DNA of 33,554 nucleotides, from contig JAPKYC010000169.1 in assembly GCA_026394505.1 (NCBI GenBank), positions 1-33,554 of the forward strand, in the 5' to 3' direction. Below the pieces are notes generated by a model. That model searched no databases and was not told the origin of the DNA. It saw only the letters and a program-made list of their open reading frames with translations. Below, piece by piece: positions 21,967-31,908 of the stretch. This stretch comes from Methanothrix sp. Its GTDB lineage: Archaea; Halobacteriota; Methanosarcinia; Methanotrichales; Methanotrichaceae. A program made the position numbers and the translations under genes. The stretch's first letter is position 1; each line of letters starts with the position of its first letter.

Positions 21967-23685
21967 TCACGATTCTTTAGGAGCAGATTCGGTGTGTAAT
22001 TCGCGATCGATTTCAGCGTCAAGATTTCCGGATTTTAAGGCACTTTCAAGGTCCGAGGAAAATTTCTTGTCACCATTAATAATTTTCTCCAATATAGAAA
22101 ATGATGTTTTTATATTATCATTAATACTTGTAGGATGATTTTCCAGAATGTCAACCTGGGACCTGAGATCATGGGACTTGGAGTCCCAATTATCGCTTCC
22201 TCTCCACAAGAAAGATGCAATTCTTGCGATGTGAAACGCACCTTTTTTTGCTAAAGTGCGCTTTAGGTTATTTGAATCATTAGATAAGTTAGATATTTTT
22301 AACCAATTTTCTGTGACATTATATAATAGATAAGATATAATAAATGGTTCGATAACTCCACTTCCTCCAAATATTTGCGTATAATAATTACTCCATATTT
22401 TATATTTACGGGCTCTAGCATCTGATGGTTTTCTCATAACAACTGATAAGTAACTCTGTGCAAGAGACTCGTTAGCTATTATTTTATCCGCATATATATC
22501 CTCAAAATTGTCATACTGTCTTAACTTTCGTTCGTAAAAATAGCCATAATGACAAAGGGCTCGTTCCATATCTACCTGTATTGGATCGTTCGCTCTTAGA
22601 TCTCGACTTGAAATTTCATTTTGATTGTTTGTGGTCATCACGATTTTGCTTACTAGATCGGAATCAGTTGTCTGGTAAATCCTAAGAAGTATTTTTACAT
22701 CTGGAGCGATTATTCCACGCTTTGCTGCTAAAGCTAAAGCAGTTGCGGTCTGACACCCATTGACAATCTGCATATTTTCAATTTTTACTATAGGATTATC
22801 TGGATCCGTTACAGGATCAATCCTATCACAAACAATTGTAATTCCATTATTGAGGAACCAAAACAAATAACTGCTATCTGCTTGCTGACAAGTTCTTAAA
22901 ATATCTGCATTAACTCTTCCTCGTGTTCCCAAGAAACGGCGAATATTTAAATCAAAAATAGATCCTGTAGAATCACTATTGACTATTCTTGCAATTTCTT
23001 GTGCTGTTGTTGTGCAAACAACACCTCTCAGACCACTCATTGCGTGATAATATTTGATCAAGCTTGGATTATTTGCATCATAATTTATTCGTATATCTGC
23101 ATTTATTTTGCGATCATTTTTTTCAATGGCATTCATTCTTCCAACAAGTTCTTCAGCCCCCCAAATTTGTAGTTGAAATTCTGCAAAAGTATTATTGTTA
23201 TATTGATCATTTATAGTTTTTATCTCTTGTTTAAACTCTTTTGATAAGGAAGCTGAAATACCCATTGTGACATACGCAACAATTATCTTTAGATTAGATG
23301 GTCCCAGCTCTCTTTGCATAGTGCGATATTCCAAAATACGATCCTTGAATTTCAAATTACTCAAGTGGTTAATGTCTGATTGTGGCTTATTAAATATCCA
23401 TTCAAGGCCGTTTCTCATGAGAATTAAGGTGTTAGAAGAAAATGAATCGGAATTTTTAAATTGAAATATATATACCGTTGCATCATCTTCATCTTCTTCG
23501 ATGGTAATGCAATCGATTTGCTTTTCTTCACTACCATCGATTAGGTCATCCTCATCAAAGGAATGCATGCTCTTCCCGACAATCAGAGAATGAGAGAATC
23601 TGATAAACGCCAAATTATCAGATAATTTTAGATCTTGAGCCGTTTTTTCTATTCTCTGTTGGATGAGTCGTTGATGCAGATTCAT
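21967..23685 (-). CDS. AIPR (abortive phage infection) family protein
   Basis: The 572-residue protein matches the AIPR family: an N-terminal restriction-endonuclease-like region (KQIDCITIEED, VYIFQFKNSDS), then the AIPR core with NIRRFLGTRGRVNADIL, FWFLNNGITIVCDRI and MQIVNGCQTATALALA. The family is linked to abortive-infection defence against phage in bacteria; the mechanism in archaea is not established. The gene is clearly more A+T-rich than uvrC behind it, which suggests transfer. GAGG lies a few bases before the ATG. It stands upstream of uvrC (64-base gap) and next to a restriction-modification system. Confidence 0.85.
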   Translation of the reverse strand: MNLHQRLIQQRIEKTAQDLKLSDNLAFIRFSHSLIVGKSMHSFDEDDLIDGSEEKQIDCITIEEDEDDATVYIFQFKNSDSFSSNTLILMRNGLEWIFNKPQSDINHLSNLKFKDRILEYRTMQRELGPSNLKIIVAYVTMGISASLSKEFKQEIKTINDQYNNNTFAEFQLQIWGAEELVGRMNAIEKNDRKINADIRINYDANNPSLIKYYHAMSGLRGVVCTTTAQEIARIVNSDSTGSIFDLNIRRFLGTRGRVNADILRTCQQADSSYLFWFLNNGITIVCDRIDPVTDPDNPIVKIENMQIVNGCQTATALALAAKRGIIAPDVKILLRIYQTTDSDLVSKIVMTTNNQNEISSRDLRANDPIQVDMERALCHYGYFYERKLRQYDNFEDIYADKIIANESLAQSYLSVVMRKPSDARARKYKIWSNYYTQIFGGSGVIEPFIISYLLYNVTENWLKISNLSNDSNNLKRTLAKKGAFHIARIASFLWRGSDNWDSKSHDLRSQVDILENHPTSINDNIKTSFSILEKIINGDKKFSSDLESALKSGNLDAEIDRELHTESAPKES

Positions 23686-23835
23686 AATTCCTCAAGCCAG
23701 ACTATCCTCACACCGCTTAAGAGCTTTGCCCTACAAGATAAGGATTGCTGTTAAATTTAAATGGGATGACATTAGCAGAACCATCTCATTCTGTTCGCAT
23801 TGCTCAATTGACTTCAACGCTACTAACAGCAAAAC

Positions 23836-23849
23836 TTAAACGTTTAAAC
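23836..23849. promoter_or_regulatory. Palindrome overlapping the promoter of the small RHH-like gene
   Basis: TTAAACGTTTAA (23836-23847) is a perfect palindrome overlapping TTTAAAC, the best TATA candidate, about 18 bases before the ATG at 23866. A repressor bound here would shut the gene off. It shares the AACGTT core with the larger palindrome before the methyltransferase gene. Confidence 0.45.
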
Positions 23850-23865
23850 ACAATATCATACTCGT

Positions 23866-24000
23866 ATGAAAAGGATCAATGTTATGGTCTCAGATGAGGC
23901 CAAAGCAAAGCTGGTGGCATACCAGAAGCACCTCCGCCTGACTACCCAGGATGAGTCTCTGGATAAGATCCTAACTCAGCTTGAAGTCCCTAAAGAGTAA
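23866..24000 (+). CDS. Small ribbon-helix-helix-like DNA-binding protein (44 residues)
   Basis: ATG 23866 to TAA 23998-24000 encodes 44 residues with the ribbon-helix-helix pattern: a short strand (KRINVMVS), helix A (DEAKAKLVAYQKHL) and helix B (DESLDKILTQLEV). Such proteins are dimeric repressors, often autoregulated antitoxins or plasmid/R-M regulators. No toxin gene is next to it; the neighbour, convergent with a gap of eight bases, is the restriction endonuclease. A palindrome overlaps its promoter. A controller role for the adjacent restriction-modification genes is inference. Confidence 0.6.
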   Translation: MKRINVMVSDEAKAKLVAYQKHLRLTTQDESLDKILTQLEVPKE

Positions 24001-24008
24001 GCCTTTGC

Positions 24009-24857
24009 CTATTGAGAGGCTATTATTTCTCGGATGGCTTCCTTTAAGTCCGGCAAGGTGCTCATGGTATAAATCATCTCAATATTCCCGTGCTGATGGT
24101 GTTCGACGATCTTCTTCAGGTCGCTGAGACGTCGATACCAACCTATGCCGTCGGTTACGAAGAAGTAGTGGGCGTCTTCATCCTTAACTCTCAGAACCTT
24201 GAGGATATCTCCAAGTACATCGGTGAGCTTGCTGCCCGTAGCTTCATAACCCTTAGCCTCGATGATGATATGTGGTACTTCGCGGGAGGGGACCGAAAAG
24301 TCCGCTTTTGCCTGCCCCCCTGATCTGCTGATGAAGTTACCGCCACGATCAAAGGTTATGCCTATCTCATCCTTAAGCTCATTCAATATGCTCTCAACAG
24401 CATCCTCTAAGGTCGCTCCGCGCCTTTGCGCGGTCATGGCCCGCCCCCTCATATGACCATACCTATCCCATAAAACATCCTGCAAGGTCCATCTATGAGA
24501 TCTATGTGTGTTGATGGCATCAGCCAAACCAAGTTCTACAAGCGCCTCTGCGATCTTTTCCGGGTCATTTTTGCATTTGCTGCGGATGCTTGTGAAATCA
24601 CCCTTTATATTTCTTGCACCCATCTCGTTGGCGAATATATCTTGAGACATGTCCAGAAAGAGGCGAAAAACGTCCAATGCATACGGATCTTCAACAAGGA
24701 TTGTTTTGATAAGATTCTGATCGAGAGCCAAATCATCGATCCTTTCAACCACACGTGTGATGGATTCCAGCACTTTACGGCCGTCATCATCCAACCACTT
24801 TGCAGGAATACGTTTAAGCTGTCCAAGAAGTTCCTCAAATGTCACTTGCCCAGTCAT
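24009..24857 (-). CDS. Type II restriction endonuclease (PD-(D/E)xK)
   Basis: The 282-residue protein carries a nuclease core in its C-terminal half: helix GATLEDAVESIL (Glu151), then Asp186 in AKADFSVPSREVP and Glu200-Ala-Lys202 in IIIEAKGYEATGSKL, the D...ExK arrangement that binds catalytic metal. Dispersed charged helices before it may read DNA. It begins four bases after the methyltransferase stop, an operon order expected for a type II restriction-modification pair. The recognition sequence cannot be deduced. A restriction role is inferred from the fold signature plus partner; I cannot name the subfamily. Confidence 0.8.
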   Translation of the reverse strand: MTGQVTFEELLGQLKRIPAKWLDDDGRKVLESITRVVERIDDLALDQNLIKTILVEDPYALDVFRLFLDMSQDIFANEMGARNIKGDFTSIRSKCKNDPEKIAEALVELGLADAINTHRSHRWTLQDVLWDRYGHMRGRAMTAQRRGATLEDAVESILNELKDEIGITFDRGGNFISRSGGQAKADFSVPSREVPHIIIEAKGYEATGSKLTDVLGDILKVLRVKDEDAHYFFVTDGIGWYRRLSDLKKIVEHHQHGNIEMIYTMSTLPDLKEAIREIIASQ

Positions 24858-24860
24858 GGA

Positions 24861-25706
24861 TTACTCCATTGACTCGCGAACTCTGTACTCAGCTAAAGAG
24901 ATATCGATCAGAGCCTCCCTCTCTATAAGCAACGACTGACCAATATTCAAGCGTCGCTTGATAACTGGTATAAGGTCCTCATTAATTTCATATCCTATGC
25001 TGTTTCTTTCCAGGTTTATCGCTGCCTTGATAGTAGTCCCCGATCCTGCAAACGGATCTAAGATAGTGTCGCCTGCAAAAGAGTACATGCGGATGAGCCT
25101 GCGTGGTACCTCTTCTGGGAAAACGGCATCATGTCCCTTGAACCATTCCGTTTCAGACTCTATTCGCCAGATCTTCTGGACATACTGTTTCCAGGTTTCC
25201 TTATCTATCTCGCTGGCTTTTTTGATTTCTGGATCCAGCTTGTTGCGCTTTCCTGGCTTTTTCAAGATAAATATGTACTCAAAGTACACATTATTGTAGA
25301 TAGATGCAGGATACGGGTAGGAGCCAAGCAGCGGCCCTCCAAAACATCGGTTGAACCCTTTATCCCAGATGAATGTGTCAAAAAGCCGGAACCCAATGTC
25401 CTGACAAAGCATGAGAAGATCAGCAGAAATCGGAACCCGATATAAGCCATTCTCCTCTTCATAGAAGTATTTGCTTCGGATATCGGCAACATTTAAGCAG
25501 AATCTTCCGTCAGGGATTAGCACACGCCAGATCTCTTTAAAGACATCTTGAATCATAGATCGATATGCTGCATAATCAAACTTTTGCCCCTTTTTCATCA
25601 GCGTGGTCACATAAGGCGGACTAGTTATAACGCAGCTTACGGATTGATCTGGAATTTCTTTCATCTGCCTGGAGTTGCCAATATAGATCCTATGCGTAGT
25701 TTTCAT
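24861..25706 (-). CDS. DNA methyltransferase, N4-cytosine type (class beta), of the type II R-M system
   Basis: The 281-residue protein has catalytic motif IV TSPPY (residues 28-32) before the SAM-binding motif I DPFAGSGTT (217-225), the class beta order. S-P-P-Y is typical of N4-cytosine methyltransferases, though N6-adenine cannot be ruled out. Between them lies the target-recognition region (WDKGFNRCFGGPLLGSYPYP, about 114-133). It methylates host DNA to block the nuclease encoded immediately downstream. A TATA-like CATATAAG and an 18-base perfect palindrome precede the gene. Confidence 0.88.
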   Translation of the reverse strand: MKTTHRIYIGNSRQMKEIPDQSVSCVITSPPYVTTLMKKGQKFDYAAYRSMIQDVFKEIWRVLIPDGRFCLNVADIRSKYFYEEENGLYRVPISADLLMLCQDIGFRLFDTFIWDKGFNRCFGGPLLGSYPYPASIYNNVYFEYIFILKKPGKRNKLDPEIKKASEIDKETWKQYVQKIWRIESETEWFKGHDAVFPEEVPRRLIRMYSFAGDTILDPFAGSGTTIKAAINLERNSIGYEINEDLIPVIKRRLNIGQSLLIEREALIDISLAEYRVRESME

Positions 25707-25964: not shown

Positions 25965-27146
25965 TCAATTGATCGCAAGATCTCCTTCCCCACCTCCATT
26001 ATTACTGTTATCGACGCCGCCTCCCAGTCCCATGCAGTTGCATCTGCCGTCAGCCCATTGACAGCCGGATTGCTGGCACTCTGCTACCGGATTTGGTGCA
26101 GGATTGAAAGGCTCGGGCGTTGGCTCTGGTGTGGGATTGGGAACGGGGCCAGGCATGGGCTCGGGTTCCGGCATGAAGCAGTTGCACTGGCCATCGACCC
26201 ATGCGCAGTTAGCGCTTTGCTCGCACTTCTCCTTTTCCGGGTCATCTAAACCACGGCAGTAGCAATGGCCATTGACCCAATCGCAGAGTGGATTAGCCTC
26301 GCACTTTTCTTGTTCCGGGTCAGGCTTGGGCATGAAGCAGTTGCACTGGCCATTGACCCAGGCGCAGTTAGCGCTCTGCTCGCACTTCTCTTTTTCAGTA
26401 AGTGGAGGCATGGTGCAGAGACACTGATTATTCACCCAGTGGCAATAGGGTTTCTTCTCGCACTGCTCTTTAGGACTTGGGGTTGGCGGATTGGGTTTGA
26501 TATAATTGCCTACCGCATAGACATCGATGATGACGGCATTGCTGTACGCGCTGTTGGTAGCAAACAGGCTGCGGTGCCTGCCGGGAGTATCGGCATAGTA
26601 CCAGATGTAATAATAGCCGGGCTGCACCAATCCCAGGTTATATCCCAGGACATATCCGCTGGGATATATCTCGTACATGGTAACGGGAGACGCCTGCGGC
26701 ACGTAGATCAGCTCTCTCGTCCATCCGCCCCAGGGTAGTGTGGCATAGAAAGTCCAGCTCACGGCTCTCTCTATCCACAGGCCCGGATTATTGCGGGGGA
26801 AGGTGGCGGAAAAGTCGTTCCAGGCCAGGTAATCACCGTTGTAGTACATGTACCTGGGCGGACTCTTAAGAACTGCAGAAGGCATGAGCTTCTTCAGATC
26901 CGTAATAGGAGGGGCCTGCTCGGTGTAGGCGGCAATCTCCGTTCCCGTATCTTCTGAAGTCGCCAGCGGCGCGCCGGTATCAACAAAGGCGCCTTCCAGA
27001 TTATTTGCCGGGACCAGGGCGCTAAATTCGGATATAGTCAGATTCGTTGCATCAGAATTTCCGGATTGGTCCAATCCTCCCAAAGATATGCTGCAAAGGA
27101 GGAGAGTGGCTATAGCAATCCGAAATAATAGATGGTCGGCTTTCAT
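25965..27146 (-). CDS. Secreted protein with five Cys/Trp-rich repeats
   Basis: The 393-residue protein has a signal peptide (IAIATLLLCSISLGG, about residues 10-24), an aromatic-rich beta domain (about 90-210; YMYYNGDYLAWNDFSATF, PGYYYIWYYADTPGRHRS) and, from residue 227 to 372, five copies of a motif C-x5-C-x-W-x4-C-x-C (for example CEQSANCAWVNGQCNC; the last copy has x4). The repeats are separated by Pro/Glu-rich linkers, and the end is Gly/Asn-rich. Four Cys per repeat suggest two disulfides or a metal site in each unit. I know no characterised family for this arrangement; an envelope or sheath role is inferred from export. It has no ATP- or DNA-related motifs and may be unrelated to its defence-gene neighbours. 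Confidence 0.7.
   Translation of the reverse strand: MKADHLLFRIAIATLLLCSISLGGLDQSGNSDATNLTISEFSALVPANNLEGAFVDTGAPLATSEDTGTEIAAYTEQAPPITDLKKLMPSAVLKSPPRYMYYNGDYLAWNDFSATFPRNNPGLWIERAVSWTFYATLPWGGWTRELIYVPQASPVTMYEIYPSGYVLGYNLGLVQPGYYYIWYYADTPGRHRSLFATNSAYSNAVIIDVYAVGNYIKPNPPTPSPKEQCEKKPYCHWVNNQCLCTMPPLTEKEKCEQSANCAWVNGQCNCFMPKPDPEQEKCEANPLCDWVNGHCYCRGLDDPEKEKCEQSANCAWVDGQCNCFMPEPEPMPGPVPNPTPEPTPEPFNPAPNPVAECQQSGCQWADGRCNCMGLGGGVDNSNNGGGEGDLAIN
26170..26231. repeat. DNA repeat encoding Cys/Trp unit 4
   Basis: These 62 bases match 26329-26390 with three differences, so units 2 and 4 of the protein derive from recent duplication or conversion. Confidence 0.9.
26329..26390. repeat. DNA repeat encoding Cys/Trp unit 2
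   Basis: Partner of the repeat at 26170-26231, offset by 159 bases, which is two repeat units. Confidence 0.9.
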
Positions 27147-27434: not shown

Positions 27435-29135
27435 TCAGGCCAGGAGGAAGTGCAAAGAAGTTCCTACTAAAAGCGCCGCCACTAGCCTCAATGCCACGGA
27501 TTTCAGGGTTCCCGAAACGCCCAGCTCCCTCAGCATCACCATGAAGGTGGCCACACATGGGAAATACATGGCCAGCACCACAGAGGCGACCACCAGCTGC
27601 GCCCCCGTCATATCCAGAGGCGCAAACATGCCGATCCCCACATCTTTTCTCAAAAAACCGATGATCAATGCCGTAGCGGCATCACTGGGCAGCCCTAAAA
27701 GTCCGGACACGACCGGCCGCAATGCCTCGCCGATGAGATGCATTAAGCCGGAGAGATAAAATAAGTTCATCACTATCATGCCCAAAGCAATGTAAGGCAC
27801 GGCCTCTTTCAAAAATTCGCGAATGCGAATGAAGGTCTTTTTGAGCAGTGAGCCTAAGTTTGGCATGCGGTAGGGGGGGATCTCTAAAAAGATCTCGGGA
27901 GACTCTCCGCCGATAAACCTGTGCAGCAGGAAACCTGTGACTGCGAACGTGATGAAGAGGGACAGGTAGACGGCAAGAATGTATCTCAGGCCAAAGGGCG
28001 CCAGCATGCCGAAGATCATGGCCGATTGCGAGGCGCAGGGGATGGCCATGGTCATGAGCGTGGCCGCCAGATACCTCTGCTTGGGCGACTCCAGGATGCG
28101 CACGGAGAGGACGGCCGGCACGCTGCAGCCCATGCAAAGGACGCAGGGCAGGATGGCCGCCCCATGTAGACCAATCCTGTGCATGAATGCGTCCAAGATT
28201 ATGCTCAGCCGGGGAAGATAGCCGATGTCCTCCAGGACGCCCAGCACCAGGTAAAATGGAATCAGGAAGGGCAGGACCACCCCTAACGGAATATAGAGGC
28301 CGGTGGTGAGAATGCCGAAGGACTTGAGCAGCTCAGGAGACGTTCCGATCAGGATCTCACGCAGCAATGGCGAGCTGATGTGGCTTTCTACAACGCCGCT
28401 GATTAGCTGAGAGTAGGCAATGAATATAGGGTCGGTGATTCTAACTTGCAGCAGCTCTCCCGCTTCAATCACCAGGCTGAAGGATAAATAGAGCACCAGC
28501 ATGGCGATGGGAATTCCCGTCAGCGGCTTGATGGAGATATCCTCCAGTTGGTCGAAGAGGGAGGGGTGGCGGTGCATGACCTTCTGCGTCCTGGCCGCAA
28601 TCTCGCCGATGCGAGCCCAGCGCTGGTCCGGGGAGGCAAAGTGCATGATGGGGGGCGTCTTCGCCTTGGCCAGGGCCCCCACCAGGTCGCGGATGCCCTG
28701 GCCGCTCACGGCCACCGTGGGAACTACGGGGACGCCCAATTCCTTTTCCAGGGCTGTCACATCGATCTCGATGCCCTTTCTGGTTGCGGCATCCCAGAGG
28801 TTGAGGGCCACCACGGTTGGCACACCCCTCTCCAGAATCTGCAGGGTTAGGTTGAGGTTTCTCTCCAGATTGGTGGCATCGATGACGTTCACCACCACAT
28901 CCGCGCCCTTCAAGAAGATCTTGCGGCTGACCTCCTCCACCCGGGTGGTTGGATCGAGGGAGTAGACGCCGGGAGCATCCACTAGGGTGGCCATCTGCAC
29001 GCCCAATTTCATGCGCCCTTCCGTGTACTCCACAGTGGTGCCGGGGTAATTGGCGGAGATGACCTCGATCCCGGTGAGGCGGGAGAAGATGACGCTCTTG
29101 CCCACGTTGGGGTTGCCCATGAGGAGGATCTTCAA
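27435..29135 (-). CDS. feoB: Ferrous iron transport protein FeoB
   Basis: The 566-residue protein joins an N-terminal G domain (GNPNVGKS, YPGTT, VDAPG, NLWD) to a polytopic membrane domain with the two Gate-type segments (LPCVLCMGCSVPAVLSV and the CVATFMVMLREL region). It imports Fe2+ under anoxic conditions. Start: the frame opens further upstream, but TTG 29135 begins MKILLMGNPNVGKS, the family N-terminus, with GGAG nine bases before it; TTG 29150 is the alternative. No feoA gene is adjacent. A promoter-like TATATA lies in the short gap after the TIR gene, so feoB is probably transcribed separately. Confidence 0.93.
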   Translation of the reverse strand: MKILLMGNPNVGKSVIFSRLTGIEVISANYPGTTVEYTEGRMKLGVQMATLVDAPGVYSLDPTTRVEEVSRKIFLKGADVVVNVIDATNLERNLNLTLQILERGVPTVVALNLWDAATRKGIEIDVTALEKELGVPVVPTVAVSGQGIRDLVGALAKAKTPPIMHFASPDQRWARIGEIAARTQKVMHRHPSLFDQLEDISIKPLTGIPIAMLVLYLSFSLVIEAGELLQVRITDPIFIAYSQLISGVVESHISSPLLREILIGTSPELLKSFGILTTGLYIPLGVVLPFLIPFYLVLGVLEDIGYLPRLSIILDAFMHRIGLHGAAILPCVLCMGCSVPAVLSVRILESPKQRYLAATLMTMAIPCASQSAMIFGMLAPFGLRYILAVYLSLFITFAVTGFLLHRFIGGESPEIFLEIPPYRMPNLGSLLKKTFIRIREFLKEAVPYIALGMIVMNLFYLSGLMHLIGEALRPVVSGLLGLPSDAATALIIGFLRKDVGIGMFAPLDMTGAQLVVASVVLAMYFPCVATFMVMLRELGVSGTLKSVALRLVAALLVGTSLHFLLA

Positions 29136-29180
29136 GATCGGAGGCTCCAAAGTTCTGGTTTCATTGCCCGAGATAAGTGT

Positions 29181-29210: not shown

Positions 29211-31136
29211 TCAGAATTTTTGAGAATCCAATGCATCCAGGTTAGCCTTCGCTTTTTTTGTGAGCGGGTGGTCGTCCCCCAGGAATTTCTGCAATATTCT
29301 GATTGATCGCTCGTAGCATCTTTTTGCGCCCGCCAGATCACCCAGATCTTGCAGCACTGCGCCCAGGTTGTTGACATCTCTGGCCACGCTGGGGTGCTCC
29401 TGCCCAAAGGCCTTCTCGTCGATGGCGAGAGCCCTCTCGAAGCAGCTCTTGGCTTCATCGAAATCTGCGAAATGACGCTGATAGCTGCCAGCATTATTCA
29501 GAATCTCTGCAATAATCTCCGATGCTACGCCATGCACCTCAGCGTATCCGGCGCAGGCCAGAGCATGAAGCAACAAAGGCGCGCACTCTTCCCAGCTTTT
29601 CTGGCTATTTTCATCAAATTGGAATGCACCATTCAGCATATCCAGGGAAGCTGCTGACCACTTCTTTAGCTCATCCTTTGCCAGCCAACTTCGCACCACC
29701 ACCTGCACAAGTTGGTGCATGGAAAAGTTATCTCCAACTCCCGTGATCAGCGAGTAGCGCCTCAGCTCCGCCATGGCAGAATCAAGCTCCAGCTCGTCCG
29801 CTGCTGCCGAGGCTAAGGGCTCTGGAAAATGCTCTGCACCTGCGGCGATCATTGATCGTGGAATATCATCGGGTGCAAGAAACGAGCAAAGGACGAGGAG
29901 ATCAGCGCCTGCCGGAGACTTCGTTCTCACAGCCTGAAAAGAGATGTTCCAGGTTGTGGCAACGGTATCAAGATAATCAGTCGGCTTGCCGCGTTTGAGA
30001 ATCTCCGCTCTGTTTTTGCGAAATCGTGCCAGATAATCTGATAGTTTTATTCCGCTCTCTTTGATGTAAGCTCCTGCCTGCTCCAATGCCAAGGGCAGTC
30101 TTCCGGTCTCCGTGGCCAGGGCTTGTGCTGAGGAGTGATCATCCTGATTGGTTCGCCTGCGAATGAAGTCAACTGCTTCGGTAGGCTCGAAAACATCAAC
30201 CGGCAGCAAGCTGGCTAAGCTTCCCCAATTGGGATTGCGAGAGGTGATGAGCACATGGCCGCCGCCTCCCTGGGGCAGAAACCTATTCAGGGCATCCGGA
30301 TCCTGGGCATTATCAAAGATCAGCAGCCATTTCCGATTCTGCCCCAGCCAGCCCTTCACAGCATTCACAACCTGGTCTGGAGAATCCATTTTGGGCAGAC
30401 CCAGGGCTGCTGCCAGGCCGGCATAATCCATGGTTATGCTTGCAGGCTCTTCAGCGCGCACCCACCAGATCAGATCATAATCAGCCTGGTAGCGGTAAGC
30501 GAACTCCCGGGCCAGTGTTGTCTTGCCCTTCCCACCTAAGCCGGTGAGAGCCTGTAGCCATGAAGCAGTCTGACCGGAATTCAGAACGGCGTGAAGATCA
30601 TTCAGCATTTGCTCGCGGCCTGTGAAGTTGGGGTTGCGCAGGTGCGGCACATTCCAGATGGGCGGAAGAGCACCGGGAAAGCGCGGCCCTTGCATCTCTG
30701 CGTGGGTGCTGGGAAAGCCGGGCTGAGAGCTGGGCTTCAGACGCTTGCCCCCAGCGACTGCCAGTATTTTTTTTCTTGCCGCATCTTCATCAAGGCCCAC
30801 CAGATCGAGGTAATTGATTGCAGCCAAAAGGCCGTCTGGCTGGCAATCCTGGACTCGTATTAATAATAATTTTCTCTTCTCGCCAGTTGGATCTCTAACA
30901 AGGGCGGCCGCGAACTCCTGTTGAGCGAACATCGATGCCAGAAAATTGGGGGACAAAACTCCAATGGTCCGCTCAGCGGCTTTGGCTGCCTCATGCATCT
31001 CCAGCACGAAATTACAGCCGGGCAGGAAATCCCAGCACTGGATTACTACAGAGTGGCCTGCCTCCTCAAGCTGCCATGCGATCCATTCCGCCCACTGGCG
31101 ATCAGCTTTGTTGTAGCTGATGAAAAAATCTTTCAT
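29211..31136 (-). CDS. TIR-NB-ARC-TPR (NLR-like STAND) protein
   Basis: The 641-residue protein has three parts. A TIR domain (residues about 1-130) starts KDFFISYNKADRQWAEWIA and carries Glu74 in LSPNFLASMFAQQEF, the position of the NADase glutamate. An NB-ARC STAND ATPase (about 165-480) has the P-loop GLGGKGKTT (199-207), Walker B WLLIFDNAQD (Asp275), TSR sensor (298-300), GRLPLAL and an MHD-like FSMHQLV. A short tetratricopeptide tail (about 550-641) has DFDEAKSCFERALAIDEKA and DLAGAKRCYERSIRILQK. This is the layout of plant NLRs and of prokaryotic TIR-STAND antiphage proteins: a sensor activates an NAD-destroying TIR. All key residues look intact. Role in defence is inferred from family and neighbours. 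Confidence 0.9.
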   Translation of the reverse strand: MKDFFISYNKADRQWAEWIAWQLEEAGHSVVIQCWDFLPGCNFVLEMHEAAKAAERTIGVLSPNFLASMFAQQEFAAALVRDPTGEKRKLLLIRVQDCQPDGLLAAINYLDLVGLDEDAARKKILAVAGGKRLKPSSQPGFPSTHAEMQGPRFPGALPPIWNVPHLRNPNFTGREQMLNDLHAVLNSGQTASWLQALTGLGGKGKTTLAREFAYRYQADYDLIWWVRAEEPASITMDYAGLAAALGLPKMDSPDQVVNAVKGWLGQNRKWLLIFDNAQDPDALNRFLPQGGGGHVLITSRNPNWGSLASLLPVDVFEPTEAVDFIRRRTNQDDHSSAQALATETGRLPLALEQAGAYIKESGIKLSDYLARFRKNRAEILKRGKPTDYLDTVATTWNISFQAVRTKSPAGADLLVLCSFLAPDDIPRSMIAAGAEHFPEPLASAAADELELDSAMAELRRYSLITGVGDNFSMHQLVQVVVRSWLAKDELKKWSAASLDMLNGAFQFDENSQKSWEECAPLLLHALACAGYAEVHGVASEIIAEILNNAGSYQRHFADFDEAKSCFERALAIDEKAFGQEHPSVARDVNNLGAVLQDLGDLAGAKRCYERSIRILQKFLGDDHPLTKKAKANLDALDSQKF

Positions 31137-31170: not shown

Positions 31171-31452
31171 TTTGTGCAAGGTTGTCCTCGCTAATTGATA
31201 AACAATCATATTAGTATTATTACTATAATTAGAATGAACCAGGCCAAATAATTGCTATATTTCATATTGATCAAGCCACTTGAGACACAAAGTTCAAATA
31301 GTATTGCTGCAAATCATTGTTAAAAAAATTATTAAGAAATAAAGAATGGCAAGAGATCCGGATCTTCTTCAACCGTCTGAGGGGATGGATGCAGCTTTCC
31401 CGAATCCGACTTGAATCAATCGACTTGAATGAAGGGGGAGGATAAAACGTCA
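31171..31452. other. A+T-rich intergenic region
   Basis: This stretch separates the divergent TIR-NB-ARC gene and the small membrane protein gene. It is A+T-rich with oligo-A/T runs (31319-31345) and a GACTTGAAT repeat (31409-31417, 31424-31432 approximately). I see no gene or RNA in it. GGGGGAGGA (31434-31442) serves the next gene. Confidence 0.5.
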
Positions 31453-31908
31453 ATGTTGATACCTATCGGCATAGTCATGCTAAGCGGCGCTGTAGGCGGA
31501 ATTGTCAATGCACTGGTGAGCGACAACGGTTTTGTCAGGCCCAGCGAGGAGACGGCGGGCGATGTCACCATAATCCGCCCCGGCTTTGCCGGCAACGCGC
31601 TTCTGGGGGCAGTGGCCGCCTTCATCTCCTGGGGCCTTTACGGAGCCTTCAGCAGTGTGGCTGTCTGGGGTGCATCCTCCGGAATGGGAACGGAGGAGAT
31701 AACCGTCTCCATCTCATCCATTGCCGGAGCCGTCATGGTGGGAATTGGTGGAGCCCGTTGGCTAACCAACGAGGTGGACAAGAAGCTGCTCCGTACAGCA
31801 GCGGCCACGGCTGCCGCCTCCAAGGCGTCCTTTGACGATTCCCAGAAGATCGCCACGGCCACCCCGGCTCAGGCCTTCAATATCGCCAAGAAGATGTACA
31901 AAGAGTGA
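31453..31908 (+). CDS. Small integral membrane protein, unknown function
   Basis: The 151-residue protein has about three hydrophobic helices (MLIPIGIVMLSGAVGGIVNA; NALLGAVAAFISWGLYGAF; SSIAGAVMVGIGGARWL) and an Ala-rich C-terminal helix with charged residues (KKLLRTAAATAAASKASF). I do not recognise the family; the glycine-rich helices resemble small channel or holin-like proteins only in general character. ATG 31453 follows GGAGG by eleven bases; ATG 31429 lies before that site and is less likely. It precedes the rlmJ-like gene by 16 bases and may be co-transcribed with it. Confidence 0.65.
   Translation: MLIPIGIVMLSGAVGGIVNALVSDNGFVRPSEETAGDVTIIRPGFAGNALLGAVAAFISWGLYGAFSSVAVWGASSGMGTEEITVSISSIAGAVMVGIGGARWLTNEVDKKLLRTAAATAAASKASFDDSQKIATATPAQAFNIAKKMYKE

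Follow-up and report, generated by a model that had tools for sequence, protein, structure and literature searches.

A candidate NLR-like immune receptor gene of the TIR-NB-ARC-TPR type in Methanothrix and its archaeal relatives

The window analyzed here (33,554 nucleotides) makes up an entire contig of a Methanothrix genome (2.3 Mb, 78% complete). It carries a gene that is best read as encoding an NLR-like (STAND/AP-ATPase) protein, with NB-ARC motifs, a winged helix-like DUF7779 and a few repeats behind an N-terminal TIR domain. We consider it probable that this gene is a single-protein intracellular alarm, in which a viral trigger would switch the protein to a multimer, the TIR domains would cleave NAD+ and the infected cell would be stopped. 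TIR-AP-ATPase-TPR proteins are predicted effectors of prokaryotic conflict systems (Kaur et al. 2020, PMC7159879), and the TIR-NB-ARC-TPR architecture is known in bacteria, mostly through genome annotation, with few archaeal conflict-system cases reported (PMC7159879).

Results

Domain architecture

The open reading frame (29211-31136, minus strand, as are all features of the gene below) begins with ATG and runs for 641 codons (641 aa) with no internal stop. Pfam places in it, in this order, TIR_2, NB-ARC, DUF7779 and TPR. The TIR domain, a candidate NADase effector (aa 4-124; 30765-31127; TIR_2 E = 8.6e-31), was also recovered in a whole-genome TIR_2 search, and the profile of its alignment (A3) matches Toll, MyD88 and AbTIR structures. 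The same genome holds a second, small TIR_2 protein (C142:12736-13071, L260) in an open frame of 194 aa. The codon for the putative catalytic residue, Glu74, lies at 30915-30917, and the residue is near-invariant both among 23 TIR sequences and when 11 full-length relatives are aligned to the window protein. The NB-ARC ATPase switch (aa 174-378; 30003-30617; Pfam 1.6e-6) has a Walker A motif, or P-loop, GLGGKGKT (aa 199-206; 30519-30542) and a Walker B motif, WLLIFD (aa 270-275; 30312-30329), each read from translation and alignment. These are followed by DUF7779 (aa 405-489; 29670-29924; Pfam 2.6e-10), with an MHD-like motif, MHQLVQ (aa 473-478; 29703-29720), and by a tail of about two TPRs of the kinesin-light-chain type (aa 543-636; 29229-29510), recognized by Pfam TPR_12 (7.2e-16) and TPR_10 and by phmmer to the KLC1 TPR.

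E74, G199, K205, T206, D275 (in WLLIFDNAQD), R300, P348 and H474 (in MHQLVQ) are all present on the translation, and G199, G201, G202, G204, K205, D275, R300, P348 and H474 are invariant against the 11 relatives, H474 being invariant in the family. Besides Walker A, Walker B and the MHD-like motif, the NB-ARC part has the sensor Arg and a GLPL-like motif. The residues singled out by the first-pass annotation (TIR Glu74, the P-loop, Asp275, the MHD-like motif and short TPRs) were thus found as it had given them, and the disrupted P-loop or TIR domain that it had allowed for did not appear, both being intact in the alignment. The window protein departs from its relatives at two near-invariant positions, W75 (F here) and R475 (Q here).

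An AlphaFold2 model of the protein (pLDDT 80.5, pTM 0.62, with lower confidence in the linker and in the TIR domain, 51-73 per block) was matched by Foldseek to ADP-bound Apaf-1 (1z6t; TMq 0.56, prob 1.00). Further matches were RPP1 and ROQ1, two TIR-NLRs of plants, PH0952 (6mfv), a STAND-TPR protein of an archaeon, and Avs3/Avs5, with a TMq that was modest for all but Apaf-1, as is expected of a multi-domain chain. The DUF7779 segment lies inside the Foldseek-aligned NLR/Apaf-1 core region and is probably a winged helix. The first-pass annotation had seen in the gene the architecture of plant NLRs; this is borne out for TIR plus NB-ARC plus winged helix, which RPP1 and ROQ1 share, but not for the sensor, which is an LRR in the plant proteins (TNLs) and TPR here, with no LRR detected by Pfam.

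The locus and its turnover

The backbone of the locus consists of an rlmJ-like gene, a small conserved membrane protein and feoB. The membrane protein gene (31429-31908, plus strand), which is present in 19 of the 26 genomes of the genus, is the divergent neighbor of the TIR gene, and feoB (27435-29149, minus strand) is directly downstream. The start of feoB is placed by homology at about 29149 (TTG), not 29198, as the homology of relatives ends at 29134-29151. The archaeal host and the two unrelated neighbors, feoB and the small membrane protein, are real, as had been proposed. The gap between membrane protein and feoB is about 0.3-0.5 kb in G001, G007, G014 and G018; the TIR gene occupies this place in the window, another open reading frame in G013, and about 3.5 kb of other sequence in G024. 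Homology of the window to relatives halts at the feoB start and, for most of them, returns at about 31196-31289 on the far side. Co-orientation with feoB makes a link to iron regulation possible. A conserved operon with feoB as a family trait was rejected, since the feoB gene of G015 is found at another place, next to an MscL-like gene, and that of other species directly faces the membrane protein.

A named LacPavin Methanothrix record, by which the host is placed in this genus, has the locus order of the window, with backbone proteins 79-87% identical. In G015, a LacPavin Methanothrix genome, a decayed allele of the window gene (L018:5956-7835) stands beside the membrane protein with only codons 400-634 left; a clean 1.26-kb deletion took the start, the TIR domain and most of NB-ARC, and a TnpB-bearing element is found at the 3' end. 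Across the 228 codons that the two alleles share, dS is 0.127 (95% 0.07-0.19), well below that of five neighbors (membrane protein, rlmJ, feoB, secreted protein and uvrC; 0.36-0.49, with a lowest lower bound of 0.23), and the gene was therefore either transferred between the lineages after their split or replaced by recombination. One copy, that of G015, decayed afterward, a turnover of the kind known for defense genes, although the decay also fits a gene that is losing its use. The window gene might itself be a decaying remnant without function here, and the substitutions W75F and R475Q, together with the fate of the G015 allele, would agree with this. However, the window frame is full-length and stop-free, it keeps all catalytic and nucleotide-binding residues, and dN/dS over the part shared with G015 is ~0.35; we regard this as the least probable of the explanations considered.

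A second insertion (21967-25706) carries a DpnII-like restriction enzyme, an N4/N6 DNA methyltransferase and an AIPR/AbiU-like gene, and splits uvrC from the secreted-protein gene, which adjoin in G013 and G015. The restriction-modification pair and the AIPR/AbiU-like gene lie 3.5-9 kb from the TIR gene; the first-pass annotation had mentioned neither these nor the decayed sister allele, the repeat arrays and the swapped effectors of the family. Strong homologs of the inserted genes are nearly absent from the genus Methanothrix, and GC3 of the AIPR gene is 0.27 compared to 0.76 for feoB. The neighboring gene at 25965-27146 encodes a probable secreted protein of repeated cysteine units (CEQSANCAWVNGQCNC type), which had no Pfam match; in the DNA these units correspond to a degenerate tandem repeat of 78 bp (26170-26390).

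Distribution and relatives

The chassis that the window protein shares with its relatives (NB-ARC-DUF7779-TPR) was matched in 11 of the 26 Methanothrix genomes, while the full TIR form occurs in the window genome only, a sister species having the decayed copy at the corresponding locus. This sporadic spread indicates that the gene is not a housekeeping gene; the housekeeping distribution that the first-pass annotation had named as telling against its reading was not seen. At E <= 1e-30, chassis matches were obtained in 45 of 238 genomes of the class, and in a phylum-wide draw in 16 of 393. The nearest full-length TIR relatives belong to other archaea of the same class (53-54% identity), and those of bacteria (KSB1, Chloroflexi, Desulfarculus, Chlorobia) are 40-50% identical; a bacterial origin, taken from the nearest match of a contig search, is superseded by these nearer archaeal relatives. 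Homologs were found in 131 bacterial plasmid records, the best being 42% identical (Prosthecochloris). A phage-borne origin was rejected, as none of 50,697 phage records matched, and a weak PHROG match to a transposition ATPase spans the P-loop region only.

Effectors on a shared chassis

The N-termini carried by this chassis include TIR, SEFIR (L227, L228), purine-nucleoside-phosphorylase-like (PNP; L067 and the more distant L076), metallophosphatase (L229), HD-CE (L230, L231) and one or more membrane helices (~15 loci). A more distant metallophosphatase-NB-ARC-TPR gene (L079:1-2700, minus strand, contig C194) is the second NLR-like gene of the window's own genome. Seven further loci (L235-L238, L186, L220 and L224) share a charged, conserved and mostly helical-looking N-terminal domain of ~94 aa, of which the one member tested had no Pfam family above cut-off; it is possibly an effector or adaptor. 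Two TIR-NB-ARC genes from same-family genomes have WD40-like repeats, not TPR (L239:1860-5558, minus strand, with 13 WD40 stretches; L240:4150-6729, plus strand), with an internal identity of 89-91%.

On an IQ-TREE tree of NB-ARC plus DUF7779 (79 rows), the TIR label changes 9 times, compared to a mean of 26 when labels were shuffled, and at least 5 of the changes are forced by starred (well-supported) branches; all effectors together require 18 changes. The TIR proteins L210/L212, for example, nest among membrane-helix proteins, with moderate support for the set (85/96), and the deepest parts of the tree, which has several long branches, are unsure. Such a phylogeny had been suggested as a check on the annotation; it mapped the repeated TIR changes but yielded no donor lineage for the window gene, since the window NB-ARC has no settled place on the tree. 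The swapping of effectors on one chassis is typical of immune receptors.

The TPR sensor

The number of TPRs on the chassis ranges from 2 to at least 8 units of 42 aa, and the DNA of these units forms 126-bp tandem repeats that are up to 100% identical; L230, for instance, has seven copies with 93% matches. We applied the measure used for fungal NLRs (identity of 85% or more across 100 aa or more; PMC4986451), and it was passed by L203 (100%), L230 and L238 (96%), L217 (93%), L218 and L231 (87%), and L237 and L247 (86%), which come from several archaeal families. Among 1,584 open reading frames with a length of 200 aa or more in the retrieved loci, a control drawn from neighborhoods chosen for this NLR family and not genome-wide, those that passed were almost all family members or antisense shadows. 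Actinobacterial FxSxx-type relatives reach an internal repeat identity of only ~41%.

The window protein fails this measure of high internal conservation; it has ~2 diverged TPRs and no array, and its best 42-aa shift gave 36%. Assembly collapse is a less likely source of the short tail, as the two TPRs are diverged and the separately assembled G015 allele has the same tail. Short tails are also found in the relatives L210, L211 and L244, the first two being full-length TIR proteins. Since tail length is a variable state on one chassis, it is uninformative on ligand size, and the earlier suggestion that a short tail points to a small ligand is not supported. A separate sensor partner is possible for so short a tail.

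Tentatively, and with less than even confidence, we place the window gene as a TIR-armed member with a contracted array in a receptor family of methanogens and related archaea whose sensor may be a coding minisatellite, its 126-bp units duplicated, deleted and homogenized, and whose effectors would be swapped and genes exchanged between species, a counterpart of the hypervariable fungal NLRs. This family-level picture is built on draft assemblies and between-species comparisons; if it is true, TPR repeat number and surface in archaeal NLR receptors would shift fast. The HET-type NLRs of fungi likewise combine repeats more than 85% identical over at least 100 aa with diverse N-terminal effectors (PMC4986451), as the archaeal relatives do, whereas the tail of the window protein has just its two diverged TPRs.

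Discussion

The nearest named family to the window protein is NF040586, FxSxx_TPR (392.1 bits versus a cut-off of 300), which resembles it in domain order, with the best-scoring stretch in the NB-ARC and winged-helix part. Actinobacterial members of this family include TIR-AP-ATPase-TPR effectors tied to peptide-processing and VMAP ternary systems (PMC7159879). Unlike the genes of such systems, the window gene stands alone and has a short TPR tail, and on the NB-ARC tree the protein is outside the well-supported actinobacterial branch. Genes for the FxSxx peptide, the radical SAM protein FxsB and VMAP ternary components were absent from the neighboring genes scanned, and FxsB over cut-off was not found in the genome at its 78% completeness (best 58.8 versus 370 bits). 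Membership in an FxSxx system was therefore rejected for want of the partner gene; the window gene is related to that system rather than an established working part of it. Methanothrix is a filamentous organism. The few archaeal cases of the related conflict systems come from multicellular or clumping archaea (PMC7159879). The biology of the genus is consistent with this pattern.

The relationship also raises the alternative that the window protein is a developmental or stress regulator, sensing metabolites or cell state and not viruses. STAND-TPR regulators such as MalT and AfsR exist (PMC6468293, PMC10936776), and the score of the window protein exceeds the cut-off of NCBIfam FxSxx_TPR, members of which accompany a peptide-processing system (PMC7159879). 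The archaeal PH0952 (6MFV; Foldseek rank 6) and MalT have the same order of a NOD with winged helix and then a TPR sensor (PMC6468293). However, the effectors of MalT and, putatively, PH0952 bind DNA, whereas the window protein has no DNA-binding effector but a TIR domain; the gene is sporadic and transferred, the effectors of its family are toxin-like enzymes and membrane helices, and FxsB over cut-off is absent from the genome. We consider such a regulatory role very improbable.

For the proposed alarm, the switch cycle would follow that of MalT, PH0952 and Apaf-1. At rest the protein would be a closed monomer with ADP in NB-ARC, held back by its winged-helix/arm and TPR parts, as in the autoinhibition of the STAND-TPR proteins MalT and PH0952 (PMC6468293). 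Some molecule of the invader, a viral protein being the likeliest, would bind the TPR tail and open the protein, ADP would be replaced by ATP, and a multimer would form. The multimer would gather the N-terminal TIR domains, NAD+ would be cleaved and the infected cell would be stopped. Clustering of TIR domains activates NAD cleavage in SpbK, and TIR NADases take part in abortive antiphage defense (PMC12847820); for the window protein we infer NADase activity, a viral trigger and cell death or dormancy by analogy. A viral trigger is favored by the turnover of the gene, the nearby defense genes and the toxin-like choice of effectors.

Alternatively, the receptor could be the same while its TIR domain makes a signaling nucleotide, such as a cyclic ADP-ribose isomer, that activates an effector whose gene lies in another part of the genome, as in Thoeris. 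Signal-making TIRs are known in bacteria (PMC12847820), and the type of product is not readable from a TIR sequence. Yet the neighboring genes scanned included no Thoeris-type effector gene, and the nearest relatives are self-contained single genes with alternative effectors at the same position, contrary to Thoeris-like signaling. Since no second effector gene adjoins, depletion of NAD by the TIR domain itself is likelier than a signal to a partner, and we think the latter unlikely.

Taken together, the intact domains and motifs, the match to the NLR-core fold, the sporadic spread, transfer, effector swaps, plasmid relatives and nearby foreign defense genes argue for a role in defense. Against it count the two changed near-invariant residues, a distance to tested homologs too great for their function to be carried over, and a PADLOC scan in which none of the families (Thoeris, Avs and others) matched. 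The first-pass annotation had called the gene a TIR-STAND antiphage protein, which remains a reasonable reading, although no antiphage system catalogued by PADLOC corresponds to it. Antiphage STAND proteins such as Avs3/Avs5 and bNACHT are, like the proposed alarm, single-protein sensors with N-terminal effectors, and Avs3 and Avs5 gave weak fold matches, but they belong to other NTPase clades and have other sensors.

The architecture of the window gene itself is known, and the repeat-built sensor found across its family is the more interesting part. As read from sequence comparison, the family shows an NLR receptor that swaps its effector, lengthens or shortens its sensor as repeats are duplicated, and passes from species to species. 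Some relatives belong to genomes of the same class that are complete or nearly so, and repeat-number variation and function could thus be tested in laboratory methanogens. In this gene and its relatives, an archaeal NLR family bears three marks of eukaryotic immune receptors, namely swapped effectors, repeat-built sensors and a sporadic, mobile distribution.
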